Of a DNA stretch of 37,255 nt, positions 3,721 through 35,873 are shown in pieces (position 1 is the first letter of the stretch; each line of letters opens with the position of its first letter). The notes beneath the pieces are model-generated. The model was not told where the DNA came from, ran no database searches, and saw only the letters and a list, made by a program, of their open reading frames with translations. The DNA is from Clostridia bacterium (GTDB lineage Bacteria > Bacillota > Clostridia > Christensenellales > Aristaeellaceae): positions 1-37,255 of the forward strand of contig JAFXZS010000014.1 of the NCBI GenBank assembly GCA_017541105.1. The letters are read 5' to 3'. Position numbers and translations under genes: made by a program.

Positions 3721-5889
3721 TTATTCTTTCAGTTCAAAGCTCTGTGTCAGTATCAGATGATCCGCGTATCCGGCAGAGATACGGAACTCCCCGGGTTCGG
3801 ATACTTCCCGGCACTCCGCGTTTACCAGGCGGAGCTGTTTTTCTGTGATCACGAATTCCACTTCCGCACGCTCTCCGGGTTTCAGCGCCACCTTGCGATA
3901 ATCAATCAGTTGCTGAACCGGGCGGACCACCGAAGCCACGGGATCCTGCAGGTACAGCTGGACCGCTTCCTTGCCGGCCCGCTGCCCCGCGTTCCGAAGA
4001 GTCACTGTCACGCGGATCTCCCCGTCCCTGTTCATGGATTTCTGATCCATGGTCAGGCTTTCATAGATGAAATCCGTGTAGCTCAGTCCGTACCCGAAGG
4101 AGTACAGGGGCAGGTTCGGCATATCCAGGTAACAGCTGGTAAAGGGGACGGAACGGCTGTCCGGCGGCGGTTTCGGCCTCCCTGTATTCGTTCGGTTGTA
4201 TGGCATGGGATATTGTCCCACGCTTCTGGGCAGTCCGGCGGACAGTTTGCCGCAGGGATTGGCTTCTCCCCAGAGCAGTCTGGCCAGAGCGTTCCCGCCC
4301 TCTGTACCCGGATACCACATTTCCAGCAGTGCCGGGGCAATGTCTGAAAGTTCCGTCAGCACCAGCGGCCGCCCGTTAAAGAGAACCACCGCCGTATGCG
4401 GATTCGCTGCGATCACTCTCCGTGCAAGTTCCATCTGCGGCCCCGGAAGCGACAGTTCTGCCCGGCTTCTTCCTTCCCCGCTGTAATTCTCCGGTTCTCC
4501 GACCGCCAGGATAACTGCGTCCGCTTTGCGCGCTGCTTCCACGGCTGCGTCGATACGGCTCCTGTCCGTATCCTCGAAGCAGGCACCGCAGCCTCTTTCA
4601 ATGTCCAGTCTGACCTCCGGCAGCAGGGCACGGATTCCCTCCGGGATCGTTACCGTATACTGTTCCGCACCGGGTCTCGACCAGAACCCGTTCAGCCTTT
4701 TTTCTTCCGCAAAAGGACCGATCAGCGCGATCCGTTTCACGTCACGGGAAAACGGAAGAATCCCCTCGTTTTTCAGCAATACCGCTGATTCCTCCGCCGC
4801 CCGGCGGGCTATCTCCCGATGTTCCCGGCAAAGGTACAGCTGTTTCTCCGCTTCTTCGTCTGCGCCGTGATAAGGGTTTTCAAACAGTCCCAGTTCATTT
4901 TTCAGATTCAGGACACGCAGGACAGCTTCGTTCAGTGCTTCCTCCGGCACGGTCCCTTCCCGCACAAGATCTGCCAGATGCAGATAATACGCATTCCGCA
5001 CCATATCGATATCGCAGCCTGCTTCCATTGACATGCGCACTGCATCCCTGAGATCCGAAGCGACACCATGGCTGACAAGTTCACCTACCGCGTTATAATC
5101 GCTGATAACCACGCCGTCAAATCCCCATTCTTCCCGGAGCACCTGATTCATCAGCCATTTGTTCGCTACAGAAGGGATCCCGTTCAGCGAATTGAAGGAT
5201 GGCATTACAAGCCGGACCCCCGCGTCCACACAGGCTTTATAGGCGGGAAAATACGTTTCCCGCAGCGTGCGTTCGGACAGTTCAACCGTATTGTAATCAC
5301 GTCCGGCTTCCCCGGCTCCGTAAGCGGCATAGTGCTTGACACAGCAGGCAACATTCTCCTTCCGGGACAGATCCTGCCCCTGCGTAACCCGGACCAGAGC
5401 AGCTCCCATCCGGCTGTTGATCAGCGGCTCCTCTGAATTTGTTTCCAGAATCCGGCCCCACCGGGCGTCTCTGGCGGTGTCCACCATGGGGTTGAAGGTC
5501 ACATGGACACCGCAGGCGGAAGACTCTTTCCGTGCCATATCCGCGCACTCCGCCAGCAATTCGTCGTCAAAAGTGCAGCCCATTGCCAGCGGGATCGGAT
5601 ATGTAGTACGCAGCCCGTGAATCACGTCCAGCATCAGCAGCAGGGGGATTTTGTTCGGATCCGCCGCCAGATGCATATCCTGCAGTTCTCTGGCCTGGCG
5701 GGCATCTTCAAAAGTCAGAAGGCTCCCCATCACCCTGCACAGCTCTTCTGCGGGCAGCAGTTCCCCATCCGGCCCTGTCATTTCCAGATTGTTCCGGATA
5801 AACTGGCTTGCATTGCATTGAACGAGCTGGCCGACCTTTTCCTCAATCGTCAGGCGCCCCAGAAGCTCCTGCAGTTCATGATCTGTCAT
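3721..5889 (-). CDS. Glycoside hydrolase family 3 beta-glucosidase
   Basis: 722 residues, BglX-like. It has the N-terminal GH3 barrel (about 10-330), the KH pair at 185-186, and nucleophile Asp264 in GVVISDYNAV. The alpha/beta sandwich (about 370-590) has the acid/base candidate in NYSGEGRSRAEL. A C-terminal fibronectin III-like domain (about 625-722) completes the usual architecture. There is no signal peptide, so it should act in the cytoplasm on imported beta-linked oligosaccharides. It stands alone: its own promoter lies at 5935-5963 and its end faces the glycosyltransferase pair. GH3 enzymes also include xylosidases and N-acetylglucosaminidases, but the SDY nucleophile context and long BglX form favour glucosidase or mixed specificity. 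Confidence 0.93.
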   Translation of the reverse strand: MTDHELQELLGRLTIEEKVGQLVQCNASQFIRNNLEMTGPDGELLPAEELCRVMGSLLTFEDARQARELQDMHLAADPNKIPLLLMLDVIHGLRTTYPIPLAMGCTFDDELLAECADMARKESSACGVHVTFNPMVDTARDARWGRILETNSEEPLINSRMGAALVRVTQGQDLSRKENVACCVKHYAAYGAGEAGRDYNTVELSERTLRETYFPAYKACVDAGVRLVMPSFNSLNGIPSVANKWLMNQVLREEWGFDGVVISDYNAVGELVSHGVASDLRDAVRMSMEAGCDIDMVRNAYYLHLADLVREGTVPEEALNEAVLRVLNLKNELGLFENPYHGADEEAEKQLYLCREHREIARRAAEESAVLLKNEGILPFSRDVKRIALIGPFAEEKRLNGFWSRPGAEQYTVTIPEGIRALLPEVRLDIERGCGACFEDTDRSRIDAAVEAARKADAVILAVGEPENYSGEGRSRAELSLPGPQMELARRVIAANPHTAVVLFNGRPLVLTELSDIAPALLEMWYPGTEGGNALARLLWGEANPCGKLSAGLPRSVGQYPMPYNRTNTGRPKPPPDSRSVPFTSCYLDMPNLPLYSFGYGLSYTDFIYESLTMDQKSMNRDGEIRVTVTLRNAGQRAGKEAVQLYLQDPVASVVRPVQQLIDYRKVALKPGERAEVEFVITEKQLRLVNAECREVSEPGEFRISAGYADHLILTQSFELKE

Positions 5890-5934
5890 GTTTTCCTCTT
5901 TGTCAAACTTTATTTCTATATACTATTGCCCGGC

Positions 5935-5963
5935 ATGATACTCATTTTATTCTTCACAGACAA
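5935..5963 (-). promoter_or_regulatory. Promoter of the GH3 gene
   Basis: Minus strand: TTGTCT (5963-5958), 17-base spacer, TATCAT (5940-5935). It is about 45 bases upstream of the ATG, with a short AT-rich leader. I see no CRE-like or other operator palindrome beside it. Confidence 0.6.
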
Positions 5964-6055
5964 TGAAAACCCTTTTTCAGCACGCTTTTTCCTTTCCCCG
6001 TCTTCTCCGGGATTCCGGGGCCTTCAAAAGCCATGAAAACCTTGCGAAAAAAAGC

Positions 6056-6084
6056 TTGCTTTTTCATATCATTTGTGATAGAGT
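6056..6084 (+). promoter_or_regulatory. Promoter of rpmB
   Basis: TTGCTT (6056-6061), 17-base spacer, TAGAGT (6079-6084), 44 bases before the rpmB start. An A5-G/C-T5 inverted repeat overlaps the -35. The remainder of 5890-6128 holds only the two divergent promoters. Confidence 0.45.
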
Positions 6085-6128
6085 AGACAAGCTTGATGTG
6101 TAACACTCCAGTAAGGAGGGGGATTTCC

Positions 6129-6341
6129 ATGGGTAAGTACTGTGAGATTTGCGAAAAGGGCACGCTGAACGGCAACAACGTCAGCCATTCCAACCGCAAG
6201 AGCCATCGGATCTGGGCTCCCAATGTGCAGAGCGTTCGCGTGATGGTGAACGGAGCTGCCCGGCGGATGAATGTTTGCACCCGCTGCCTCCGCAGCGGCA
6301 ACGTGCAGCGCGCTTTGCCCAAGATTCACGAAGAGGCCTGA
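6129..6341 (+). CDS. rpmB: 50S ribosomal protein L28 (zinc-type)
   Basis: 70 residues from ATG 6129, with AAGGAGG upstream. The CEIC pair near the start and the CTRC pair near residue 55 are the zinc-ribbon cysteines of the C+ form of L28. The middle has the usual SHSNRKSHRIW and PNVQSVRV stretches. It is a single-gene transcript between its own promoter and the terminator at 6359. L28 often sits alone in Bacillota. Confidence 0.95.
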   Translation: MGKYCEICEKGTLNGNNVSHSNRKSHRIWAPNVQSVRVMVNGAARRMNVCTRCLRSGNVQRALPKIHEEA

Positions 6342-6358
6342 TTGCAGCCGAATGAATC

Positions 6359-6385
6359 GCGGCGTGAGAATTCACGCCGCTTTTC
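6359..6385 (+). terminator. Terminator of rpmB
   Basis: A perfect 9-bp GC-rich stem (GCGGCGTGA, 6359-6367, with 6372-6380) and a 4-base loop are followed by TTTTCGTTT. It also separates rpmB from the convergent ABC transporter gene. Confidence 0.9.
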
Positions 6386-6401
6386 GTTTGTCTGCACACT
6401 G

Positions 6402-8189
6402 TTATGCGTTCCCCCGGAACTGGAGCTGGTACAGGTCGTAATAGGCGCCGTGCCTGGCCATCAGTTCCTCGTGTGTTCCCTGCTCGACAATCCGCCCGTC
6501 ATCTACCACGGCAATCTCATCCGCGTTTTTGATGGTGCTCAGCCGATGGGCCACCACCAGCGTTGTCCGGCCGACGCACAGCTCATCCAGCGCGTTCTGA
6601 ATCAGGATTTCCGTCGTATTGTCCAGCGCGCTTGTCGCCTCATCCAGGATCAGGATCGGCGGATTTTTCAGAAAAACCCGTGCGATGCTCAGGCGTTGTT
6701 TCTGTCCGCCGCTCAGCCGGACGCCCCGTTCACCGATCTGCGTATCGTATCCCTTTGGAAGGGACATGATATAATCGTGAATATTCGCGCGCCGGGCTGC
6801 TGCAACGATTTCCTCATCCGTTGCGTCCAGCTTGCCGTAACGGATGTTTTCCCGCATCGTATCGTTGAAGAGATAGATATCCTGCTGTACGATGCCGATA
6901 TTCTTCCGCAGGCTTTCCAGCGTGAATGTGTGGATTTCTTTCCCGTCCAGCAGGATCTGGCCGCTGGCCACATCGTAGAAATGCGGTATCAGATGGCAGA
7001 TCGTCGTTTTTCCTCCGCCGGAGGGGCCTACCAGCGCGAATTTCTTTCCTTTTTCAATATTCAGGTCCACATGCCGCAGGACGCGCTTATCCTCGTCATA
7101 GGCGTAATTTACATCCCGGAACTCAATATGCCCTTCCAGTTCTCCGGCATTCACGGCGCCTGCCTGGTCCCGCTCCGGTTCAGCGTCCATGATGGCGCAG
7201 AACCGCTCAAAGCCGGTAATCCCGTTTTCGAACTGCTCCGTAAAGTTGATCAGGGTCATGACGGGGCCGATGAACATATTTACGGATACGATGAACGCGG
7301 AATAGTCGCCGAAACGGATCTGCCCGTTATACAGAAACAGGCCGCCCGCAATCAGCACCACCACGTTGAAAATATCGGTCACAAACGTGTTCCCGCTGTG
7401 GAAACGGCCCATGGCGCTGTAGGAATCCCTGCGGGCCCGCTTGAACCGCTCATTGCCTTCCTCAAACTTTTCCTGTTCTTTGTCCGCGTTGGTAAAAGCC
7501 TTTGTCACCCGGATGCCGCTGATGCTGCTTTCCAGGCTCGCGTTGATATCCGCCATGGCGGAACGCGTATCCCTGAATGCCTTCCGCATCTTTTTCCGCA
7601 GGGTATAGGAAATAATCACCAGGAAAGGCACGCAGGCAAAGATAATCAGCGTCAGCCAGATATTGATGGAGCTGAGATAAATGAACGACACAATGATGCT
7701 CAGCACGGAAATCACCAGGTTTTCCGGGCCGTGGTGTGCCAGTTCCACGACGTCGAACAGGTCGTTCGTCATCCGGCTCATGATCTTCCCTGTCTCATGG
7801 GTATCATAAAAACTGTAGGGCAGCCGTTCCAGGTGCTCAAACATATCGCTGCGCATACGGGCCTGCATGTATACGCCCATCATATGCCCCTGATACTGAA
7901 TAAAGTAGTTCAGCAGCATCTTTGCGATGTACAGGCATAGCAGCGTCAGGCCCAGAATCACGATCATCCGGTAATTCCGGTCCGGGATCAGGGTGTTCAG
8001 CATGGTCCGGGTAATGATGGGATAGACAATCCCGATCATCGCCACCAGCAGGGATGCACCCATATCCATGCAGAACAGCTTTCTGTGAGGTCTGTAATAG
8101 GCAGTAAAGCGCCTCAGAAGGCTCTGCGTTTCCTTCCGGCTCCGCTTTTCCGATTCCTCCCGCGGCGGCCGGTTTCTTCTCTCCGACAT
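6402..8189 (-). CDS. ABC exporter, fused membrane and ATPase domains (MsbA/BmrA type)
   Basis: 595 residues. A charged N-terminus of about 30 residues is followed by a six-segment type IV exporter membrane domain (about 40-330) and one nucleotide-binding domain. ATPase motifs are complete: Walker A GPSGGGKTT at 388-396, LSGGQKQR, Walker B ILILDEATSALD and the switch His in VVAHRLST. It would work as a homodimer exporting a lipid, drug or glycan carrier from the inner leaflet. It is last in the minus-strand series, 6 bases after the pyruvyl transferase family gene and near wecB, so a role with a surface glycan is possible. Sequence alone cannot separate that from a multidrug exporter. Confidence 0.92.
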   Translation of the reverse strand: MSERRNRPPREESEKRSRKETQSLLRRFTAYYRPHRKLFCMDMGASLLVAMIGIVYPIITRTMLNTLIPDRNYRMIVILGLTLLCLYIAKMLLNYFIQYQGHMMGVYMQARMRSDMFEHLERLPYSFYDTHETGKIMSRMTNDLFDVVELAHHGPENLVISVLSIIVSFIYLSSINIWLTLIIFACVPFLVIISYTLRKKMRKAFRDTRSAMADINASLESSISGIRVTKAFTNADKEQEKFEEGNERFKRARRDSYSAMGRFHSGNTFVTDIFNVVVLIAGGLFLYNGQIRFGDYSAFIVSVNMFIGPVMTLINFTEQFENGITGFERFCAIMDAEPERDQAGAVNAGELEGHIEFRDVNYAYDEDKRVLRHVDLNIEKGKKFALVGPSGGGKTTICHLIPHFYDVASGQILLDGKEIHTFTLESLRKNIGIVQQDIYLFNDTMRENIRYGKLDATDEEIVAAARRANIHDYIMSLPKGYDTQIGERGVRLSGGQKQRLSIARVFLKNPPILILDEATSALDNTTEILIQNALDELCVGRTTLVVAHRLSTIKNADEIAVVDDGRIVEQGTHEELMARHGAYYDLYQLQFRGNA

Positions 8190-8195
8190 GATTTC

Positions 8196-9254
8196 TTACC
8201 CTCCCCCGGCTTCGCTTCCCAGTTTTTTCCTCAGCCATGCCCGGCCTTCCCCGCGCAGCGCATCCACCCCTTTTTCCCGGATGATCCGCTGAAAATGGTC
8301 TACCCGGCTGTTTTTGCTTTCCGGATCCTCCTCCCGGTATCGGCGCATCACTTCCGTCCGGACGTTCAGGATTGTTCCGAACACCAGGCCGTGAAAGCTG
8401 TCCGTACAGAAGCATGCCGCGTTCCGGATCGCTCCGAGAAATGCTTCCGGGCCGATCCCTTCCAGCAGCTCGAAGCCGGAACGGTACCCTTCCGCCGTAA
8501 CAGGAATCTCAAGAATCCGCAGTCCTTCCTCCCGGCTGATCTGCCGGACCTTCTCCCGGTAGGTTTCATTGGTTCCGATAAAATAGCACAGGACATAGGG
8601 GGAACCCTCCGGCCCGGGAGCCGCGATTTCCTCCCATTCTTTCCGGCTCAGCAGGCACACGGGATCCGGCATCACATCCGGGCGCATTCCGGTCATCTGC
8701 TCCATCAGCTTCGCGCCTTCCTCTTCCCGGACGGAAACAGCGGAAAAGCCGCGCATCCACCGTCGGATTTTCCGGATTTTGCCGGCCGGCGGCATCGTCC
8801 GGATCCCAAGGCTCGGGGCGTAAGCAATCTTTTTCGTTTTTTCCGGTGCGAAATTCAGATAATATACCGGATTCAGCCACACCGGATTCCAGATCTGGTC
8901 GCTCCCGCAGACCAGCGCGTCATATCCCATGCTCTGTTCCCGCAGTTCCCGCGCGTTTCGGCATGCGGAAGACATCTTCATCCGCCGTGCGTAGAAAGCC
9001 GGAATGGCAATGCTTTTCTCCTTTGCGCCCTGTTGCCCGGCTTTCACGCTTTTCTTCCGGATGCCTTCCAGAATCAGTTTCGGGCTGTTGCCGCTCAGCA
9101 GCAGGTTCTTGATCTTTTCCTTCCGGTCCGGCTGATAATCCAGATGCTCGCAGTCGAATCCCATGTCCCGGATCGTTCGTTGCAGGGCATAGGCCTGGAG
9201 GGAAGATCCGTAGTTTTCGTTATGCAGAAAGGTAATAACGCCTACGCGAGCCAT
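8196..9254 (-). CDS. Polysaccharide pyruvyl transferase family protein
   Basis: 352 residues from ATG 9254, preferred over a GTG at 9263 because GGAG lies 8 bases before it. The protein opens with VGVITFLHNENYGSSLQAYAL and contains VCGSDQIWNPVW, both typical of the PS_pyruv_trans fold, and ends with a D(S)FHGLVFG-type motif. Family members (CsaB, WcaK, EpsO-like) move pyruvate from PEP onto sugars of wall polymers or exopolysaccharides; many distant members have not been tested. It overlaps or abuts wecB upstream, which makes a UDP-ManNAc precursor. A pyruvylated wall or capsule sugar is therefore plausible but not shown. Confidence 0.85.
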   Translation of the reverse strand: MARVGVITFLHNENYGSSLQAYALQRTIRDMGFDCEHLDYQPDRKEKIKNLLLSGNSPKLILEGIRKKSVKAGQQGAKEKSIAIPAFYARRMKMSSACRNARELREQSMGYDALVCGSDQIWNPVWLNPVYYLNFAPEKTKKIAYAPSLGIRTMPPAGKIRKIRRWMRGFSAVSVREEEGAKLMEQMTGMRPDVMPDPVCLLSRKEWEEIAAPGPEGSPYVLCYFIGTNETYREKVRQISREEGLRILEIPVTAEGYRSGFELLEGIGPEAFLGAIRNAACFCTDSFHGLVFGTILNVRTEVMRRYREEDPESKNSRVDHFQRIIREKGVDALRGEGRAWLRKKLGSEAGGG

Positions 9255-9259
9255 ATGCC

Positions 9260-10366
9260 TCACTCCGTATCCGTTTTTTTGCCTGTCAGGATATCCGCGA
9301 TGCGTTCACAGGCGCGGCCGTCTCCGTAAGGGTTTTCCGCGTGCGCCATGCGCTGGTAGATTTCCGGATTATCCAGCAGGAGCGTAAACTCCCGGACAAT
9401 CGTCTCCTCATCCGTTCCCGTCAGCTTCAGGGTTCCTGCTTCCACGCCCTCCGGGCGTTCCGTGGTATCACGCATCACCAGGACAGGTTTCCCCAGGCTC
9501 GGCGCTTCCTCCTGAATCCCGCCGCTGTCCGTCAGGATCAGGTAACTGCGGGCCATCAGATTATGGCAGTCCAGCACATCCAGCGGTTCGATCAGCCGGA
9601 TCCTGTCACATCCGTTCAACTCTGCCGCTGCGGCTTCCCGCACCTGCGGATTCATGTGGATCGGATACAGCACCTTGACATCGGGATGCGCCTCCGTGAC
9701 CCTGCGGATCGCCCGAAACATGGCATGCATCGGAAGGCCGAGGTTCTCCCGCCGGTGCGCTGTCAGGAGGACAAGCCGGCTTCCCGATGCCCAGTCCAGC
9801 TCCGGATGGGTATAATCCTTCCGCACAGTCGTTTTCAGTGCGTCAATCACGGTATTCCCTGTCACAAAGATATGCTCCGGATTTTTCCCTTCCCGGATGA
9901 GATTGTCCCGGCTCAGCTTTGTTGGCGCGAAATTGTACCTGGCGATGATCGAAACCGCCTGCCGGTTGTATTCCTCCGGATAAGGAGAAAACAGATCGTA
10001 GGTCCGCAATCCGGCTTCCACATGGCCCACCGGAATCTGAAGGTAAAAGCAGCTCAGAGCGGCGGCAAAAGTTGTGCTGGTATCGCCGTGTACCAGAACC
10101 ACATCCGGATGTTCCTTTTCCAGCACTGTGCGCATGCCTTCCAAAACATGGGTGGTAATGTCAAACAAAGTCTGCCGTTCTTTCATAATCGCCAGGTCAT
10201 AATCCGGCTGTACGTCAAAAGCGTCCAGCACCTGCCGGAGCATATCCCGGTGCTGCCCTGTCACGCAGACCAGCGTTTCGGTTCCTTCCCGCTGTTTCAG
10301 TTCCTTTACCAGCGGGCACATTTTGATGGCTTCCGGCCGGGTGCCGAAAACGAGCATGATCTTCAT
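9260..10366 (-). CDS. wecB: UDP-N-acetylglucosamine 2-epimerase (non-hydrolysing)
   Basis: 368 residues, the normal size for WecB/MnaA. The N-terminus has GTRPEAIKMCPL. Further on are the HGDTSTTFA and GHVEAGLRT stretches, LTAHRRENLG, and a C-terminal TDSGGIQEEAPSLGKPVLVMR UDP-binding segment. It interconverts UDP-GlcNAc and UDP-ManNAc in the cytoplasm, supplying ManNAc for wall teichoic acid linkage units or capsule. The stop overlaps the upstream GTG of the pyruvyl transferase family gene. It is 84 bases downstream of topB; that gap contains the palindrome at 10416-10434. Confidence 0.95.
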   Translation of the reverse strand: MKIMLVFGTRPEAIKMCPLVKELKQREGTETLVCVTGQHRDMLRQVLDAFDVQPDYDLAIMKERQTLFDITTHVLEGMRTVLEKEHPDVVLVHGDTSTTFAAALSCFYLQIPVGHVEAGLRTYDLFSPYPEEYNRQAVSIIARYNFAPTKLSRDNLIREGKNPEHIFVTGNTVIDALKTTVRKDYTHPELDWASGSRLVLLTAHRRENLGLPMHAMFRAIRRVTEAHPDVKVLYPIHMNPQVREAAAAELNGCDRIRLIEPLDVLDCHNLMARSYLILTDSGGIQEEAPSLGKPVLVMRDTTERPEGVEAGTLKLTGTDEETIVREFTLLLDNPEIYQRMAHAENPYGDGRACERIADILTGKKTDTE

Positions 10367-27617: not shown

Positions 27618-29375
27618 TCATTCAATCAGGATCAGCAGGCTGTTGACGCCGAATGTGCACTGGTAGATCGTTTCCACAGCAAGATTTCGCACCATCTGGA
27701 TTCCCATGAAGCGCTCATCGTCTTCATACTCCGGCGAAAGGGGGTTGAAATCAATGCCTCCGTATCGGATGCGTATACCGATGACTCCCTGGACAGAGAA
27801 AACCCGCACATCAAAGCTCAGGGCTGTATCGGGATTGAACTGTGTGATAAGCGTCATCATTTCTTCCAGCGCCAGGCTGACCCGCATTGTCTGTTTGGGA
27901 GCCATCTGGTTATCCGCACAGAAGGCGCCGATCCGCTCGCTCGCTTCACAGATGGCGTTCATTTCCGACGTGCTCGAAAAGTTAATGCTGTTCCCGCCGT
28001 CCTCCAGCGATCTGTCCATCAGCAGCCATCGGCTGAGGGGCTTATTCTTTTCCTTTCGCCGGATAAAGAACGTCAGGCCGGCCCAAAGCAGCAGCGTCAG
28101 CAGCGTCTCCGTAACCAGGAAGAGCCAGGGTGTCGCGCCGATCGCATACAATACCAGCAGGCTGACCACACAGAAGACGAAGGTTCTCGATATAATGAGA
28201 ATATTGGACAGCATTTCCCGGCCGGAAACACGGTAGAATCCGGTAAGAATGTTGATCAGAAGCGTGGGGAACAGGCTGACGGCCAGCATCGCAAGGGGAA
28301 GTTCCATTCCGTTCACCTGGTACATCCCGCCGATTGCGGAAGAGCCAAAGAACAGAAGCAGCGCCAGCAGTGCGCAGCCGATCAGGCCGATCCGCAGCTG
28401 CTGCCGCAGCAGAATAAGGATACTCGGATTGTCCCGCTCACCGCTGTATACTCCCAGAATGGCTGTACCGGATTGCGGAACCCCCAGGGTAATACCCTCG
28501 GTCAGCGACGCCATGGCACTCACAACCGTAAACCGGGCGATCATAAACTGGGCAAGCATCATATTGCCGCTCAGCCGGAGCAGAATGCTGTTTACGACAA
28601 ACACGCGCAGCGCCTGGAAAAGATTGCTGACAGCTTCCGGGCTGCCTGCCCCGGCCATATTCAGAAGCTCCTTCAGGCACGGCCGGACAAGCCGCAGGGA
28701 AAACGTATGCCTTCCGGTATGCAGCGAACACATGCCGAAGACCGAAGCAGCCCCGGCGGACAGAACACTGGCCAATGCCGCGCCGCGTACGCCCATGCGC
28801 AGAACATACAGGAACAGAATATCCAGCAGGATATTCCCGATGCCCATGATCAGCATCATGACGGATACAGAGGCGTTTTTCCCTTCCAGAGGCAGAAACC
28901 AGAAAGGCGGGAAGGTCAGCATAATCGCCGGAACCGCCAGCAGATAGATCTGCGTATATTCACAGACAAGTGAAATCAGCGACGGGTCATCACCGCAGAG
29001 TCCGCTCGCGATCGGTTCCATCAGGAACATCCCCGTTGCCATCAGGACGGCGGAAAAAATCAGAATCAATGTAAGATGAATGGAATACAGCCGCTGCGCC
29101 TGATCCCCGTGGTTTTCCCCCACCGCTCTGGCGCAAAGGGTTTCCGCCCCGCAGGAAAGGCAGGCGGCAATCATGTTGATCAGCAGGATGATGGGTGTGC
29201 TCAGGCTCACCGCGGCCAGCCCCTTCACACCTACATACTGGCCCACCAGGATTCCGTCGGCCAGAAGTGCCAGATTGCTGCTGAAGAAAGAGATGATTCC
29301 CGGAATCACCGCAGCCCGGTAGGCCGTGCGGAGAAAGGCTGTGGATTGTGTCAGGGAACCGGTGTTTTCCGTCAT
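27618..29375 (-). CDS. MATE transporter fused to a degenerate RsbW-like domain
   Basis: 585 residues. Residues about 15-440 are a complete 12-helix MATE (MatE x2) transporter, which normally exports cationic drugs or metabolites using a Na+ or H+ gradient. After RRKEKNKP comes a cytoplasmic domain (about 462-585) that aligns over its length with the stand-alone RsbW-like protein at 35466-35873. Key ATP residues are gone: the N-box Asn is Leu509 (LALEEMMTLI), the G1-box Asp is Tyr538 (IRYGGIDFNP), and the G2 box GGLG is RFMG (555-558). So it probably does not bind ATP in the usual way. The ATG overlaps the SpoIIE phosphatase stop (ATGA). MATE-HATPase fusions occur in gut Clostridia, from memory. 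The loss of the site here and its purpose are my inference. Confidence 0.9.
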   Translation of the reverse strand: MTENTGSLTQSTAFLRTAYRAAVIPGIISFFSSNLALLADGILVGQYVGVKGLAAVSLSTPIILLINMIAACLSCGAETLCARAVGENHGDQAQRLYSIHLTLILIFSAVLMATGMFLMEPIASGLCGDDPSLISLVCEYTQIYLLAVPAIMLTFPPFWFLPLEGKNASVSVMMLIMGIGNILLDILFLYVLRMGVRGAALASVLSAGAASVFGMCSLHTGRHTFSLRLVRPCLKELLNMAGAGSPEAVSNLFQALRVFVVNSILLRLSGNMMLAQFMIARFTVVSAMASLTEGITLGVPQSGTAILGVYSGERDNPSILILLRQQLRIGLIGCALLALLLFFGSSAIGGMYQVNGMELPLAMLAVSLFPTLLINILTGFYRVSGREMLSNILIISRTFVFCVVSLLVLYAIGATPWLFLVTETLLTLLLWAGLTFFIRRKEKNKPLSRWLLMDRSLEDGGNSINFSSTSEMNAICEASERIGAFCADNQMAPKQTMRVSLALEEMMTLITQFNPDTALSFDVRVFSVQGVIGIRIRYGGIDFNPLSPEYEDDERFMGIQMVRNLAVETIYQCTFGVNSLLILIE

Positions 29376-31012
29376 TGCTGAGCCTCTTCCGCCGCGGCAG
29401 ACGGCCCGTAATACTGCAGGTTCAGCATGGTAATATCGTCAAACTGGGGCGCTTCTCCGACAAACTCGTCAATCGACTGCTTGACGGCGGGAAGGAGCTC
29501 GGCGGGCGTTGCGGACAGGCGGCTGTTGAGCGCACTGATCATCCGGTCCGTTCCGAAGAGCTCGTTATGGCTGTCCGTTGCTTCCGTCACGCCGTCCGTA
29601 TAGACAAAGAGGCTGTCCCCGGGGTCAAGGTGGAATTCATGCTGGCGGAAACGCAGCCCTTCCATCACAGCCACTGCGGGGGAATGCTTGTAAACGATCA
29701 TTTCGTAGGATCCGTTGGCTTTCCGGATCACAGGATTCTCATGGCCCGCGTTGGCAGCAAGGCCGCGGCCTGTGCTCAGCTCGATGACGGCCAGCCAGAC
29801 TGTGACAAACAGCTGCGCTTCATTGCCTTCACAAAGCTGCTCGTTCACATGTGCAAGGGCCTCCTCGGGGCTGTCCCCCGCCATCACGCGGTTCTTGATC
29901 AGCGTCTTGGCGATAACCATGAACAGCGCGGCAGGCACCCCTTTGCCGGATACATCCGCCATGACAAGAGCCAGATGATCGTCATCCACCAGGAAAAAGT
30001 CATAGAAATCGCCGCCCACTTCCTTCGCCGGATCCATTGAGGCATAGATATCAAAATCCTTGCGCGACGGGAAAGCCGGGAAGATTCTCGGCAGCATATC
30101 CGCCTGGATCTGCGTGGCAACGTTCAGTTCCGCTCCGATGCGTTCCTTCTCCGCCGTGACCGCGGACAGTTCATGAATGTAACGGCGCAGGCCAAGATCC
30201 ATCTGTTCGAAGGAGTTCGCGAGCGATTCCAGCTCGTCTCCCGTATGGATATCCGCGCTGAACGGCACATCCTGATCGATGTTTGTCACCAGGTCCTCAG
30301 CGGCATTTTCCAGTGTTTTGACCGGCCGGAGAACGTTGCGGTTGATCTTTGTATAGAACAGAACGCCGCCAAGCACCGTCACGACCAGAACGACGCCGAT
30401 CACGCTCAGCAGGAAGATCATCATCATGCGAACGACGTTGGGCATATTCAGGTCGACACCGACCACCGCGACACCCTTTCCGGTCGAATCGTAGATCGGA
30501 ACCCGGGCAGTTCCGATGAGCCCGAATTCAGGGTGCCACGCAACGATAAAGTCCTCGGGGGGATTCGGGGAGGTAAGCAGCTCCTCCACGGCGCCGCGCG
30601 CCCTGTCCATATACTCCTCATGATCTCCCAGAACGTTCATTTCCTCATCGGAATAAGCGTCCCAGACATAGATCAGATCGTCTCCGTTATGTACAAAAAC
30701 ATAGTAATACCATGCTCCGGAACGCTGCTTCAGGATATCCATGAAATGCTGGACCTGGTCATAATACTCGTCCGTCTGCATTGTGGTGACATAACCCGCG
30801 ACGCGATCCCCGTCAATATAGTCCGAGGCCATTTTGCCCAGTGAGAAGGCGGTCTTGCTGTACTCCTTCATCTGGGAATCATAGTATATCAGGGTTACGA
30901 TGACCCCAGTGCAAATACAGATGACCAATGCCATCACCACAAGAGATCCCAGGAATTTTTTGCTCAGTGTTTTCTTCTTTGGCTGTCCTGTTTCTTTCAT
31001 GACAGTTTTCAC
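29372..31012 (-). CDS. Membrane-bound SpoIIE-type PP2C phosphatase with extracellular sensor
   Basis: 546 residues. TM1 (19-43), an outer domain of ~150 residues (44-195, cache-like, with YYYVFVHNGDDLIYVWD and ARVPIYDSTGKGVAVVGVDL), TM2 (196-221), HAMP (222-275), a helical linker, and a C-terminal SpoIIE/RsbU PP2C domain (310-535). Metal residues are intact: EVGGDFYD (D335), ADVSGKG (D353), YTDGVTEA and FDDITM. Such phosphatases remove phosphate from STAS anti-anti-sigma factors and so release sigma factors. It is probably gated by a ligand outside the cell. It precedes the MATE fusion with ATGA overlap; no STAS protein or sigma factor gene is in this window. Confidence 0.94.
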   Translation of the reverse strand: MKTVMKETGQPKKKTLSKKFLGSLVVMALVICICTGVIVTLIYYDSQMKEYSKTAFSLGKMASDYIDGDRVAGYVTTMQTDEYYDQVQHFMDILKQRSGAWYYYVFVHNGDDLIYVWDAYSDEEMNVLGDHEEYMDRARGAVEELLTSPNPPEDFIVAWHPEFGLIGTARVPIYDSTGKGVAVVGVDLNMPNVVRMMMIFLLSVIGVVLVVTVLGGVLFYTKINRNVLRPVKTLENAAEDLVTNIDQDVPFSADIHTGDELESLANSFEQMDLGLRRYIHELSAVTAEKERIGAELNVATQIQADMLPRIFPAFPSRKDFDIYASMDPAKEVGGDFYDFFLVDDDHLALVMADVSGKGVPAALFMVIAKTLIKNRVMAGDSPEEALAHVNEQLCEGNEAQLFVTVWLAVIELSTGRGLAANAGHENPVIRKANGSYEMIVYKHSPAVAVMEGLRFRQHEFHLDPGDSLFVYTDGVTEATDSHNELFGTDRMISALNSRLSATPAELLPAVKQSIDEFVGEAPQFDDITMLNLQYYGPSAAAEEAQQ

Positions 31013-31015
31013 TCC

Positions 31016-32434
31016 TTAATCCCGATCCAGATAGATCCAGGTATCGTCCCGTCTTCTTTCCCGAAAACCTGAGGCAATTGCGGAATACAGGGCACTTTTA
31101 TTATCCGGGTTGTTCAGGCATCTGGCCCGGGTGTGCAGGCCCAGTTCTTCCTCCGCGTAACGGATCAGCACATTCCCGGCCTTGCTGATTCCCCTGCCGT
31201 GATACTCCGGCAGCAGGCGCATGCCCACTTCCGCGCTGCCCGCGTCGGTAAAGTTCCAGAGCAGCGCTTCCCCGATCATCGGGCCGTCCTCCCGTTCCCT
31301 GACAGCAAAGTTCATCGAATCTCCGACCGCCATATCGTACTGGACGGACCGGTAGAATGTCTCCGGATCCGGATATCGGGGCAGCGTGAAATCCTCTTCG
31401 TAATCGTAGCCCCACCAGTGATTGTTCTCCCGGTCGGTGTTCATCCGGTAATAGGCTTCCATATCCGTTTCCCGGAAAGCGGTGAGCACCGCGTTGTCCG
31501 CCTGAAGCACCGGATATTGCACCACTTTTGCCCCGGGCGCCCGTACATGCGCCTGGTATTTATGCACCTGCCGCAATGGATGATAGAGTTCCTTGGCTCT
31601 GCGGATCCCGGGATCCCCCGAATCATCCTCCCAGTTGAACCAGCGCAGCGGACCGTATCCCAGGTCCCGGACATACCGGATGAAGCCTCGGAGCATGACC
31701 GGATAGATATCCGTATAAGCCATCAGCGCTTTTTCCACATGGATCATCAGCGTCTGGCCAATCACTTCCCCGATGCAGATGGCCGCAAGCCTGCCCTGCA
31801 CCCAAAGCCCGGCAGCCGGCAGGTCCAGCGCATGATAAACATCCAGCAGATCACGGCTGTGCCGAAGCTCCATTTCTTCCAGTTTGTCCATATCCGGGTG
31901 TTCCAGCGTATAGGCCTTCAGCAGTTCCAGCGCAGCAGGCATATGCTCCGGCAGCAGCGGACGGATATCCGGCTCACCGTAAAGGCGGATAAAGTGGTTG
32001 ACCCTGTAACGGATTTTGCGCAGCTCACTTCCGCTCATGTCGGCATACGGTTCAAAATGATACAGGTAATCACTCCATCTGGCCTCATATCCCCACATCG
32101 TCTGCGGAAACCGGGGATCCCGAAGCAGTCGCTGAAGTGTGTCCTCATCCAGCGCAAAGAACCGGAGCGCGATATCCTCCTCCCGAACCTGCTCAGACAA
32201 GGCATCCAGCATCCCGTCCGCATCGGGGCCGGCCGGATAAGTGAAAGCGGGATATCCGTTCATCATCTGCCGGAGAACTATCGTGTCGTTCCGGAAACAG
32301 ATCTGCGCCTCCTGTTCCTGGCGCCACATCCAGATCGTCCCCATGGACAGATCCGAACAGAGCGTGGGCAGATTGCGGAAATAGGGTTTCAGGCGCTTCA
32401 GAAGTTCAAGCGTACAGGGCTCAAATAGCAACAT
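31016..32434 (-). CDS. DUF2156-GNAT double acyltransferase
   Basis: 472 residues from ATG 32434 (GGGAGG 4 bases upstream; a GTG at 32467 would add 11 residues). Residues 1-290 match the DUF2156 (LPG synthase C-terminal-like) pattern: YRVNHFIRLYGEPDIRPL, AAGLWVQGRLAAICIGE, and the WFNWEDDSGDPGIRRAKELYHP stretch. Residues about 305-472 are a RimJ-like GNAT: AFRETDMEAYYRM, a LLPEYHGRGISKAG acetyl-CoA loop, and NNPDNKSALYSAIASGF. DUF2156 proteins alone are thought to transfer aminoacyl or acyl groups; the GNAT part should use acetyl-CoA. No membrane segments, so cytoplasmic. It begins the long minus-strand series and lies 3 bases upstream of the phosphatase gene. Confidence 0.85.
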   Translation of the reverse strand: MLLFEPCTLELLKRLKPYFRNLPTLCSDLSMGTIWMWRQEQEAQICFRNDTIVLRQMMNGYPAFTYPAGPDADGMLDALSEQVREEDIALRFFALDEDTLQRLLRDPRFPQTMWGYEARWSDYLYHFEPYADMSGSELRKIRYRVNHFIRLYGEPDIRPLLPEHMPAALELLKAYTLEHPDMDKLEEMELRHSRDLLDVYHALDLPAAGLWVQGRLAAICIGEVIGQTLMIHVEKALMAYTDIYPVMLRGFIRYVRDLGYGPLRWFNWEDDSGDPGIRRAKELYHPLRQVHKYQAHVRAPGAKVVQYPVLQADNAVLTAFRETDMEAYYRMNTDRENNHWWGYDYEEDFTLPRYPDPETFYRSVQYDMAVGDSMNFAVREREDGPMIGEALLWNFTDAGSAEVGMRLLPEYHGRGISKAGNVLIRYAEEELGLHTRARCLNNPDNKSALYSAIASGFRERRRDDTWIYLDRD

Positions 32435-32784: not shown

Positions 32785-33612
32785 ATGGATAAAGGGGGAG
32801 CCAAGCAGCGGAATCTGGAAAGTTTCGGCCTGAAAATCAAAAAGTACCGGAAGAATGCCCGCATGACGGCGGAGGCCCTGGCCCGTTCGCTGCAGGTCTC
32901 CGTCAGTTCGGTGAGAAACTGGGAATGCGGCCTTTCCCGTCCTGATCCGGAATCGCTTTTTAAACTTTTCACCGTTCTCCGCGTGGAGCCAAACGAGTTT
33001 TTCGGGATCCGGGGCATCGGTGCCGCCCTCTCTCCCGGCGAGCAGGCGCTGCTGGAAGACTACAGAATGATGGATTCCCGCGCCCGGGAGGATTTCCGGG
33101 CGATCGGGGAAGCCATGCGCCGTCAGTGCCGTCACCGCGCTCTGCGGGAAGTGCGCGGCCGGCTTCGTTCCGTACCGGATTACGGAAGGTGCGCGGCCGC
33201 CGGAAGCGAATCCGGCTGGGAGGTCCGTTCTGAGCCTTGCGAAGTGCTTCTGTATAACAGCGGCATCGTTTCCCAGGCAAACGAAATCATTACCGTCTCC
33301 GGGCACAGCATGGAACCTGGTTTTCACAATGGGGACCGGGTTCTTGTCCGGTATTGTACAGAAGCTGCGTGGGGGAAGGTTTGTGTATTCAGTCTCCGGG
33401 GTGTCGGCTGCGTGATCAAGGAGGCCGCGCCCGGCCGGCTGCATTCACAGAACCGGGCATACGGCGATATTGTTCCCTGGGAGGAAGACGGGGCGGAGCT
33501 GATTGGCTGCGTTCTGGGCGTTATTGAGGATCGCATGATCCCCTCTCCCGAAGAAGCCGTTCTTTATGAGGAAGCCGTTCGGATGGAAAAGGAAGAAGGA
33601 GATCCCGAATGA
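32785..33612 (+). CDS. LexA-like self-cleaving repressor with XRE-type HTH
   Basis: 275 residues from ATG 32785 (AGGAGG 5 bases upstream). An XRE helix-turn-helix (about 10-75: FGLKIKKYRKNARMTAEALA, VSSVRNWECGLSRPDPESL) is followed by a helical linker and an S24/LexA-type peptidase domain. The cleavage-site pattern VPDYGRCAAAG places the Ala-Gly bond at 139-140. The catalytic pair is Ser175 (SGHSMEPG) and Lys212 (CVIKEA). Gly140 to Ser175 is 35 and Ser to Lys 37 residues, almost as in E. coli LexA (34 and 37). So RecA-stimulated self-cleavage is likely. It resembles HdiR and phage CI-type SOS regulators. Stop and next start overlap (ATGA). It probably represses its own operon through the AACCA-N7-TGGTT sites. 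Confidence 0.88.
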   Translation: MDKGGAKQRNLESFGLKIKKYRKNARMTAEALARSLQVSVSSVRNWECGLSRPDPESLFKLFTVLRVEPNEFFGIRGIGAALSPGEQALLEDYRMMDSRAREDFRAIGEAMRRQCRHRALREVRGRLRSVPDYGRCAAAGSESGWEVRSEPCEVLLYNSGIVSQANEIITVSGHSMEPGFHNGDRVLVRYCTEAAWGKVCVFSLRGVGCVIKEAAPGRLHSQNRAYGDIVPWEEDGAELIGCVLGVIEDRMIPSPEEAVLYEEAVRMEKEEGDPE

Positions 33613-33872
33613 CAGAGCGGGTGTACGTTCAGGTAAATTCTGACTTCGATGCCACCGGATTCATGCAGCCCCGGTCCATTACCTGGAAGGATGGGCGCAC
33701 CTTCCGGATTGACGCGGTCAAGGATTTTCGCCCCGCGTCTTCCGTGGAAAAAGGGCTCCGCGGCGACTGCTATACGGTTGTGATCAAAGGAGAAATCCGG
33801 CATCTCTTCTTTGAGCGGGGCAGCAATCGCTTCGCCAGCCAGTTCGGCCGTTGGTTTGTGGAGACGGAATAA
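33609..33872 (+). CDS. Small DUF6504-like protein between repressor and polymerase
   Basis: 87 residues, ATG overlapping the stop of the repressor. Features: PRSITWKDGRTFRIDAVKDFRP, CYTVVIKGEIRHLFFER, and GRWFVE at the end, i.e. a predicted small beta-rich fold. The pattern of W/F, R/K and final RWFVE recalls DUF6504, a family I remember from mutasome (ImuB/DnaE2) neighbourhoods in actinobacteria. That is a resemblance from memory, not a search result. Its place between a self-cleaving repressor and a Y-family polymerase suggests a role with the polymerase. No YolD similarity, which is the usual partner of UvrX in Bacillus. Confidence 0.75.
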   Translation: MTERVYVQVNSDFDATGFMQPRSITWKDGRTFRIDAVKDFRPASSVEKGLRGDCYTVVIKGEIRHLFFERGSNRFASQFGRWFVETE

Positions 33873-33900
33873 CTCCGTTTTGCCGGAAAAGGAGGACGCG

Positions 33901-35469
33901 TTGGACAGAACCTACGTCGCGATCGATCTGAAATCGTTTTATGCCAGTGTGGAGCTTGCGGACAGAAAATATGATCCGCTGACGACCCATCTGGTCGTAG
34001 CGGATGACAGCCGGACAGACAAAACCATCTGCCTCGCTGTCTCCCCTTCCCTGAAGGCCTGCGGAATCCCGGGCAGGCCCCGGCTGTTTGAAGTCATCCG
34101 GCAGGTAAAAGAGCTTAACGAAGAACGATTCAGAAAAGCGTGCGCACTCGGCCTGCTGCCCAAGAATCCCGGCACCGGGCAGTACCATTTCAAATCCTTC
34201 TCCTTTGATGCGGAAGCCCTTGCCGCGGATCCCTCCCTCGGGCTTTCCTATATCATCGCGCCTCCGCGGATGAAACTGTATGAGAAAATCAGTTCCCGGA
34301 TTGTCGGGATCTATCTGAAGTATGTTTCTTCCGAAGATATTCATGTGTACAGCATCGATGAGTGTTTTATGGACATTACGGGCTATCTGGAAACCTACGG
34401 CCTTTCTCCCCGTGAACTGACCGGCACCATGATCCGGAATGTTCTTCACGACACGGGAATTACCGCTACCGCAGGCATCGGCACCAATCTGTATCTGGCG
34501 AAAATTGCAATGGATATTGTTGCCAAGCATGTCCCTGCCGATAAGGATGGGGTGCGGATCGCGGAATTGAATGAAGCGCAGTACCGGGAACAGCTCTGGT
34601 GCCATACGCCGCTGACCGATTTCTGGCGTGTCGGGCCCGGAACCACCCGGCGCCTGGCGCTGCTCGGCTGCCATACCATGGGGGACATAGCCCGCCTGAG
34701 CCTCACCGGGGAAAGCCGGCTTTTTGCCGCGCTGGGCATCGGTGCGGAATTGTTGATTGATCACGCATGGGGATGGGAGCCCACCGAACTCAGCGCAATC
34801 CATTCCTGCCAGCCTGAAACAAAAAGCCTTTCTTCCGGCCAGGTACTGATGGAACCCTATGACTGGGGAAAGGCAAAGCTGATTGTTCGGGAGATGACAG
34901 ATCAGCTTGTGCTGGATCTGGTCCGGAAGGGATATGTCACCCGTCAGGTGGTACTGACCGTCGGATATGACAAGAGCAGCATTGTTCCGCTCCGGGATTC
35001 CGGTTTTGCCGTTGCAAAAACGGGCCGGCCATATGCCGGCCATGTCAGGCTGGATCTCTATGGCAGGTCCATTCCCGCATATGCGCACGGCACCGGGAAT
35101 CTGGATCAGTGGACCAATTCTGTCCGGCGCATTATGGATGTCATGATGGAACTGTACGATCGCATTGTGGATCCGGATCTGACCGTTCGTCGGATCAGCG
35201 TGGATGCCTGCAATCTGATCCCGGAAGATGAAATTCCCGCAGGCGATCCGGTACAGCTGGATTTCTTTACGGACTGGACCGCGCTGGAAAAGCGCCGGGC
35301 AAAAGAAACCCGCGCGGATGAAAAGGAAAGGCAGCTTCAGAAAGCAAGACTCGCTGTCCGTGGAAAATTCGGAAACAACGCTCTCCTGAAGGGCACAAGC
35401 CTGCAGAAGGGCGCAACCGCCCGGCAGCGGAATGAGCAGATCGGCGGCCACCGGGCCGGCATCACTTAA
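33901..35469 (+). CDS. Y-family DNA polymerase (UvrX/YqjW type)
   Basis: 522 residues from TTG 33901, which has AAGGAGG 5 bases upstream and gives the proper start DRTYVAIDLKSFYASVE. An extension to 33811 would overlap the previous gene. Palm motifs: the first metal Asp in AIDLKSFYASVE and the second acidic pair in SIDECFMD. The helix-hairpin-helix region (FWRVGPGTTRRLALLG), a little-finger domain and a C-terminal NALLKGTSLQKGATARQRN, then QIGGH, as in UvrX-like proteins. These copy damaged DNA with low fidelity, and are usually damage-induced. No beta-clamp motif is obvious, though QLDFF near residue 454 could be one. Gap of 28 bases after the small gene. Its end overlaps the convergent ATPase gene by 4 bases. 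Confidence 0.93.
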   Translation: MDRTYVAIDLKSFYASVELADRKYDPLTTHLVVADDSRTDKTICLAVSPSLKACGIPGRPRLFEVIRQVKELNEERFRKACALGLLPKNPGTGQYHFKSFSFDAEALAADPSLGLSYIIAPPRMKLYEKISSRIVGIYLKYVSSEDIHVYSIDECFMDITGYLETYGLSPRELTGTMIRNVLHDTGITATAGIGTNLYLAKIAMDIVAKHVPADKDGVRIAELNEAQYREQLWCHTPLTDFWRVGPGTTRRLALLGCHTMGDIARLSLTGESRLFAALGIGAELLIDHAWGWEPTELSAIHSCQPETKSLSSGQVLMEPYDWGKAKLIVREMTDQLVLDLVRKGYVTRQVVLTVGYDKSSIVPLRDSGFAVAKTGRPYAGHVRLDLYGRSIPAYAHGTGNLDQWTNSVRRIMDVMMELYDRIVDPDLTVRRISVDACNLIPEDEIPAGDPVQLDFFTDWTALEKRRAKETRADEKERQLQKARLAVRGKFGNNALLKGTSLQKGATARQRNEQIGGHRAGIT

Positions 35470-35873
35470 AAGTTTTTCCGGATCCGCAGAACATTCCGGC
35501 CATCCCGGTATTCATAGGAGACCGCATCCATGCTCTGCTTGACCATATAGATTCCGAGCCCGCCGATCTTCCTTTCCTCCGCGGAGAGGGTAACATCCGG
35601 ATCCTCCTTGGCCAGCGGATTATAAGGGATCCCGCTGTCAATCAGCGTAATCGCCACGGCATGGTACGGTTCCTCCGTCTCCACGCGAATTGTCGCGGAG
35701 CCTGTTTCTTCGCCGTAGGCATAACTGGCGATATTGACAAACAGTTCCTCCACGGCGATGTCAATCTGCGTCTGTACTTTCTCCGGACAGTTCGCGGCTT
35801 CCAGATGGCCGTCCACAAAGTCCAGCACCCGCATCAGGTTGTCAACTCTGGCCTCCAGTGTCAGTTCGTTCAT
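35466..35873 (-). CDS. RsbW/SpoIIAB-like ATP-binding protein
   Basis: 135 residues from ATG 35873, chosen because the fold begins MNELTLEARVDNL; an ATG at 35894 adds 7 residues. A GHKL ATPase: N-box VEELFVNIA (E43, N47), G1 box IDSGIPYNP (D79, G81) and G2 box GGLGIYMVK (104-112), all intact. Such proteins are serine kinases that bind sigma factors or STAS antagonists. This short form without extra domains is common in gut Clostridia. It is convergent with the polymerase and sits 72 bases downstream of metA, probably in the same transcript. No cognate STAS or sigma gene is adjacent; the closest related domain is the degenerate one in the MATE fusion. Confidence 0.9.
   Translation of the reverse strand: MNELTLEARVDNLMRVLDFVDGHLEAANCPEKVQTQIDIAVEELFVNIASYAYGEETGSATIRVETEEPYHAVAITLIDSGIPYNPLAKEDPDVTLSAEERKIGGLGIYMVKQSMDAVSYEYRDGRNVLRIRKNF

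Follow-up and report, generated by a model that had tools for sequence, protein, structure and literature searches.

The 37,255-nucleotide contig JAFXZS010000014.1 (the window) belongs to a 1.92 Mb, 62% complete assembly of a Clostridia bacterium (GCA_017541105.1). It carries an operon encoding a double group-transfer enzyme, a membrane sensor phosphatase of the SpoIIE type, and a MATE transporter fused at its C-terminus to a degenerate copy of an RsbW-type kinase domain. We consider it probable that this unit is a partner-switching module whose output is the transporter. Partner switches are known mainly for the control of sigma factors, and a few enzyme or secretion targets are known as well. 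The arrangement described here is real and recurrent, and on the sequence evidence it appears to be a new form of the partner switch in which transporters are the linked output. We found no description of it, and listings of open-access papers showed nothing linking MATE with SpoIIE, STAS or HATPase. The genes concerned are as follows.

27618..29375, minus strand: MATE transporter fusion, whole protein, 585 amino acids (aa) (MatE, 1.2e-17)
28056..29375, minus strand: MATE transporter core, residues 1–440
27618..28055, minus strand: RsbW-type pseudo-kinase domain at the C-terminus of the MATE protein, residues 441–585 (Leu in place of the N-box Asn, Tyr in place of the G1 Asp, G2-box GG not conserved)
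29372..31000, minus strand: membrane sensor phosphatase, 542 aa (Pfam SpoIIE 5.8e-47 and HAMP 1.8e-6 in a scan that began at the GTG at 31012)
31016..32434, minus strand: LPG_synthase_C (DUF2156)+GNAT double group-transfer enzyme, 472 aa from its ATG (PF09924 9e-25 and PF13302 (Acetyltransf_3) 2.5e-12, scanned as a longer 483-aa frame)
35466..35873, minus strand: stand-alone RsbW-like HATPase_c_2 kinase, 135 aa (PF13581 2.7e-24, 86 bits against a cut-off of 27.4)

The window MATE protein has both a MatE domain and the MATE fold, and is a putative ion-coupled exporter. Its 145-residue fused domain taken alone matches HATPase_c_2 (PF13581) weakly (E 0.016, 15.7 bits, under the cut-off), and we assign it to this family through its relatives: 31 of the 36 aligned relatives match PF13581 at E ≤ 0.1 (best 1.2e-6), and a broader relative, L061, clears the cut-off with 37.2 bits against 27.4. 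A profile built from 29 fused domains finds RsbW (6m36) in the PDB with an E-value of 5e-4. The AlphaFold (AF2) model of the MATE protein (pTM 0.85) places a β-α-α-β-β-α-β-β succession at residues 463–584, behind the MATE bundle; this order of elements fits the RsbW fold, but the structure-search matches were taken up by the MATE core.

The fused domains were compared across the window clade (46 loci plus the window). In all 47, both the N-box Asn and the G1 Asp are gone, and for this reason we call the domain a pseudo-kinase rather than a kinase. Asn is replaced by Leu in 46 and by Ile in one, and Asp by Tyr in 46 and by Cys in one. Both residues are retained in 20 of 21 small HATPases, the exception being a split MATE piece in L116, and in all six SpoIIE-fused HATPases. 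Because the same substitutions occur among MATE proteins whose identity to that of the window goes down to 37%, they look like a selected non-catalytic state and not like decay.

The genomic surroundings of the fusion were surveyed in one genome per species, which returned 47 related fusion loci. The genomes are labelled Clostridia, Lachnospiraceae, Oscillospiraceae, Ruminococcus and Christensenellaceae, among others, and many come from gut or rumen samples. Genes in the relatives were called with our own script, so that starts may be misplaced, and three pairs of loci (L038 and L078, L039 and L092, L040 and L111) are the same contigs. Linkage was counted in the 36 loci with an untruncated downstream side; the other 11 of the 47 were omitted because the contig ends within three genes downstream. 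A SpoIIE phosphatase lies in the cluster in 35 of the 36, in 34 cases with a recognisable sensor part. The cluster includes a kinase in 24 loci, sometimes fused to the phosphatase, and a STAS protein in 19 (18 as a small protein, and L080 solely as a 412-aa protein); all three occur together in 18. Removal of near-duplicates (MATE proteins at least 90% identical) leaves 38 loci, 31 of them untruncated, with SpoIIE in 30, a kinase in 20, STAS in 15 and all three in 14. The fullest clusters read STAS – MATE fusion – enzyme – sensor phosphatase – kinase, with gaps mostly near zero; the gaps between enzyme and phosphatase genes run from −29 to +127 bp (35 pairs).

For a control we took 40 unfused MATE genes from 12 family genomes, strongest MatE scores first and not at random. 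One adjoining MATE gene was skipped, and three of the 40 loci were dropped for want of a gene call at the site. Only one of the remaining 37 has a STAS, SpoIIE, kinase or 194-aa-type gene (see below) within three genes, compared with 18 of 38 for the fused MATE genes of the family (Fisher 6.9e-6); among these 18, L077 counts through its 194-aa protein alone. Without the five loci nearest the window (L038–L042), 14 of 33 fused genes have such a neighbor. The linkage of the phosphatase to the MATE fusion is thus well supported. A preliminary description of this DNA, made from its letters and open reading frames, had proposed the three operon genes as one unit, and for these two genes the survey agrees, with SpoIIE in 35 of 36 untruncated loci and in 30 of 31 after removal of near-duplicates. 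The exact trio of the window was found elsewhere in L078 and L079 only.

The remaining parts of the switch are also encoded in the genome. The window kinase is encoded some 3 kb upstream of the operon and is the only match to HATPase_c_2 over the cut-off in the assembly. Its N-box, G1 and G2 residues (N, D and GG) are intact, so that it is active-looking, and it is 56–66% identical to 19 small kinases in the loci of relatives. The single STAS match of the assembly is a 98-aa protein on another contig (G000:C6:66474-66737, contig C6; 54.4 bits), which is 30–64% identical to 23 small STAS proteins of relatives. An SSAG motif is invariant in 16 aligned STAS proteins, and its Ser would be the phosphorylated residue. 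Behind the STAS gene on contig C6 follows the gene for a 194-aa protein that has no significant Pfam match and that an iterated hidden Markov model search relates weakly to the domain group. The preliminary description had called the usual module incomplete and had suggested a search of the genome for STAS proteins. That search gave the one match on contig C6, and STAS is indeed not local; with a kinase inside the window and STAS elsewhere in the genome, however, the switch is not incomplete.

Several variants of these parts were seen. Near the STAS and 194-aa genes on contig C6 is a second MATE fusion, whose RsbW-like C-terminal domain is divergent (L077, G000:C6:58000-75000; 5025-6776 and 7866-8759). 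In L047 (1576-3402), and likewise in L082, L090, L102, L109, L123 and L124, a SpoIIE phosphatase and an RsbW-like kinase, with opposing activities, form one chain. STAS is fused to an APH-type phosphotransferase domain in MATE-fusion loci L054 (5628-6803) and L047 (3739-4908), and STAS proteins of a length similar to these occur in L080, L090, L101 and L102.

The window phosphatase is the only protein of the assembly with SpoIIE over the cut-off (PF07228, 160.6 bits against 25), and is of the SpoIIE/RsbU-type PP2C kind, with its phosphatase motifs intact. Its parts are, in order, an N-terminal helix, an alpha/beta domain, a second long helix, HAMP, a coiled coil and the SpoIIE PP2C domain; the first two long helices would span the membrane, placing the alpha/beta domain outside. 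Structure matches for the sensor domain were taken up by the PP2C part. The cache-like sensor of the preliminary description was not borne out, in that each Cache model matched one of 30 relatives, at E about 0.06.

Some group-transfer enzyme is present in 34 of the 36 loci: it is a GH3 enzyme in 21, a GNAT-like protein of 199 aa in 11 and LPG+GNAT in two, with none recognised in the other two loci. The two GH3 enzymes that were run through Pfam are firm (7.8e-61 and 4.4e-53), and the remaining GH3 calls were made by similarity to one of them. Among the 24 slot enzymes longer than 500 aa, the GH3 nucleotide motifs are found as loose patterns in 22, 21 and 24, and as strict ones in 13, 16 and 21. 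On a quick tree of the MATE proteins, with some long branches, the enzyme type changes at fewest twice.

In the window enzyme (PF09924, 87.8 bits, cut-off 27.5), Pfam places LPG_synthase_C at residues 33–306 and GNAT at 327–460 of the 483-aa frame, and gives no further domain there; no fused flippase domain was found. Homologues at 1e-20 occur in five of 120 family genomes, including that of the window. L078 and L079, the two other loci among the 47 with the exact trio, carry LPG+GNAT counterparts, that of L079 by Pfam. Outside the trio, a 44% identical homologue (G048, locus L171) stands in 18 kb of sequence free of switch and MATE genes, and no SpoIIE, kinase or STAS gene accompanies the homologues in L171, L172 and L173, although L172 has a MATE-like gene about 2 kb off. 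These three loci, together with the exchange with GH3 and GNAT-like enzymes, rule out the DUF2156-GNAT gene as a fixed partner, contrary to its inclusion in the unit proposed earlier. It is a lineage-specific occupant of an exchangeable enzyme slot.

The 199-aa slot protein is likely a GNAT. This identity is not proven, because the matches are weak: 8 of 12 such proteins match Acetyltransf_1 (best 0.007) and two match Acetyltransf_9 (best 0.0023). A profile search against solved structures gave nothing convincing, the best match (0.042) being unrelated and AAC3-I following at 0.067. The C-terminal cysteines of this protein (YC-YC----C-C; for example in L111:9448-10044) are invariant in 12 aligned sequences and are possibly metal binding.

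The same C-terminal domain is carried by GlnQ-type ATP-binding cassette (ABC) ATPases in seven of the 47 loci. In L081, L087, L088 and L089 the ABC gene stands directly before the MATE gene. In all seven ABC-fused domains Asp has become Tyr, and in all seven Asn has changed to another residue. L088 has the run STAS – SBP_bac_3/permease fusion – ABC ATPase with the domain – MATE with the domain – GH3 – phosphatase – kinase. The window genome has a member of this group as well:

L174 (G000:C8:38000-54000), 7492-10117: ABC ATPase, GlnQ-like, that bears this degenerate domain at its C-terminus and adjoins an SBP_bac_3/permease fusion protein

The STAS protein of contig C6 probably also serves this amino-acid importer. 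More tentatively, an RsbW pseudo-kinase fused to several kinds of transporter (MATE and amino-acid ABC ATPases) might be a docking port for one phospho-regulated STAS protein, in which case one extracellular signal could coordinate the import of a precursor, its conjugation and the export of the conjugate without transcription.

We propose the following mechanism, in which we infer the docking of STAS, the direction of gating, the cargo and the topology. The membrane phosphatase would sense a signal outside the cell and dephosphorylate the small STAS protein, which the RsbW-like kinase would phosphorylate. In one of its phosphorylation states STAS would dock on the pseudo-kinase domain of the MATE protein, which could not phosphorylate it back, and the docked STAS would open or shut the pump. 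The coexistence of a kinase and a phosphatase that should act on STAS with dead kinase copies on the transporters suggests docking in one state. The neighboring enzyme (LPG_synthase_C+GNAT here, and a GH3 amide synthetase or GNAT-like protein in relatives) would make the cargo, for which an acyl or aminoacyl conjugate is the likeliest candidate. Given the recurrent phosphatase/MATE unit (35 of 36) and the group-transfer enzyme (34 of 36), regulated export of a modified small molecule, which was one of the two functions offered in the preliminary description (there with an acylated molecule), is the best reading. If true, pumps and importers would be gated post-translationally, through a dead kinase built into the transporter. 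Some operons would place an exporter, a GH3 amide synthetase and an amino-acid importer under one switch, and such operons offer a testable lead on the way in which Clostridia of gut and rumen may synthesise and release N-acyl amino acids.

A number of observations weigh against a transporter as the output of the switch. In the window genome itself, STAS is on another contig and the kinase lies outside the operon. Among the relatives, just 19 of 36 clusters have STAS and 24 of 36 a kinase, although the missing genes may be elsewhere in the genomes. As many as 20 of the 38 fused MATE genes of the family are without a switch gene within three genes, and the control genes with which they were compared were those with the strongest MatE scores, and not randomly drawn. 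The degenerate state is not general, since Asn and Asp persist in some other MATE fusions (6 of 6, and more elsewhere). Finally, the co-occurrence of the domain with STAS speaks for the module but is a weak test, because STAS is common, the genomes that carry the domain are related to each other and kinases too are picked up by the profile: 58 of 120 family genomes match the domain profile at 1e-5 and all 58 encode STAS, as do 101 of the 120, whereas none of the 19 genomes lacking STAS matches. All 40 family genomes with a strong match (best E ≤ 2e-19) encode STAS (Fisher 3e-4). In the phylum, 57 of 398 genomes match at 1e-3, ordinary kinases included.

We regard it as unlikely, on balance, that the module acts in the usual Rsb manner on a sigma factor whose gene lies elsewhere, with the MATE domain as a decoy that titrates STAS according to the transport state. 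All the classical Rsb parts are present, and ECF-type sigma genes lie near the module in four of the 47 loci (L091, L092, L097 and L114), so that a transcriptional output may coexist there. However, the other 43 loci have no sigma gene in a scan with four queries, all from the own genome. The assembly has six Sigma70_r2 matches, comprising RpoD, SigH, two ECF-superfamily proteins, a 176-aa ECF-like frame and one more that has no NCBIfam match at 1e-20, and no SigB/F type was recognised among the six in this 62% complete assembly. Control of a sigma factor was the other function offered earlier; the four ECF loci lend it something, and the sigma factors recognised in the assembly lend it nothing. 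In L091, L092 and L097 the ECF gene is just upstream of STAS on the same strand, preceded by a gene of 62–68 aa (that of L097 without a Pfam match), and in L114 it is on the opposite strand.

It seems quite improbable that the fused domain is a mere structural or dimerisation appendage, with the switch genes regulating something else and linked to it by shared expression or transfer. The 20 of 38 family fusions that lack a nearby switch gene speak for such an account; set against them are the linkage of 35 of 36 in the window clade compared with 1 of 37 in the control, the loss of both ATP-site residues in 47 of 47 domains, nearly always to the same letters, and the occurrence of the domain on ABC ATPases that some of these operons encode. 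A split MprF-like system, in which the DUF2156 enzyme aminoacylates a lipid that the MATE protein flips under sensor control, appears very improbable. In MprF, the lysyl-phosphatidylglycerol synthase/flippase, DUF2156/LPG_synthase_C enzymes transfer aminoacyl groups, the flippase domain is fused and no GNAT domain is known. The window is like it in having an LPG_synthase_C domain, in this case next to a transporter with a model similar to MOP flippases, and differs from it in that the enzyme has no fused flippase domain and an extra GNAT domain.

The proposed module with a transporter as output can be compared with known switches. It resembles the Rsb/SpoIIA systems (RsbU-RsbW-RsbV and SpoIIE-SpoIIAB-SpoIIAA) in its PP2C phosphatase, its kinase with intact N, G1 and G2 boxes and its STAS protein with SSAG. 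It differs in that the linked partner is a transporter with a degenerate kinase copy, and that no SigB/F-type sigma factor was recognised in the incomplete assembly. In the SiaABC(D) system of Pseudomonas aeruginosa, as outlined in PMC7647112, the SiaA phosphatase and SiaB kinase balance the phosphorylation of SiaC, which with the cyclase SiaD controls biofilm formation. The effector in that outline is a diguanylate cyclase, and here it would be a pump. The PP2C domain of SiaA is among the closest structures to the model of the window phosphatase. We know of no pseudo-kinase fused to the SiaD cyclase effector. The STAS protein MlaB binds the transporter subunit MlaF and is needed for stability, complex assembly and function according to the abstract of PMC7367683; there STAS binds the ABC ATPase itself, and the abstract mentions no pseudo-kinase domain, kinase or phosphatase. 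BtrU, BtrV and BtrW act on type III secretion, as summarised in a review (PMC8256260).

With regard to the cargo, OlsH is described in PMC12493201 as a bacterial GH3-like N-acyl ornithine synthetase, which is amide-forming, and N-acyl amino acids are reported there from gut Clostridia. One slot enzyme matches the OlsH model (5.2e-17), with 61.6 bits against an OlsH cut-off of 620, and is therefore not OlsH. The words MATE and transporter are absent from that paper, and the window itself has LPG+GNAT and not GH3.

As to the layout of the operon, coordinates and Pfam domains confirm the preliminary description as to the place and minus strand of the three genes, and the ATGA overlap that it gave for the phosphatase and MATE genes is present. 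Its 3-base gap between the enzyme and phosphatase genes holds if the phosphatase starts at the GTG at 31012. The ATG at 31000 is the likelier start because of its better-placed Shine-Dalgarno sequence (AAGGAG, upstream), and the gap is then 15 bases. The single promoter that it assumed is unproven: a candidate (TAGACA-18-TAAAAT, 32617-32588) exists, yet such promoter-like sites are no commoner than shuffled sequence would give (4 found, 3.1 expected). The plus strand between kinase gene and operon (32785-35469) codes for a LexA/UmuC-like set, which consists of a helix-turn-helix and peptidase S24 repressor, a DNA polymerase of the Y family and a small protein.

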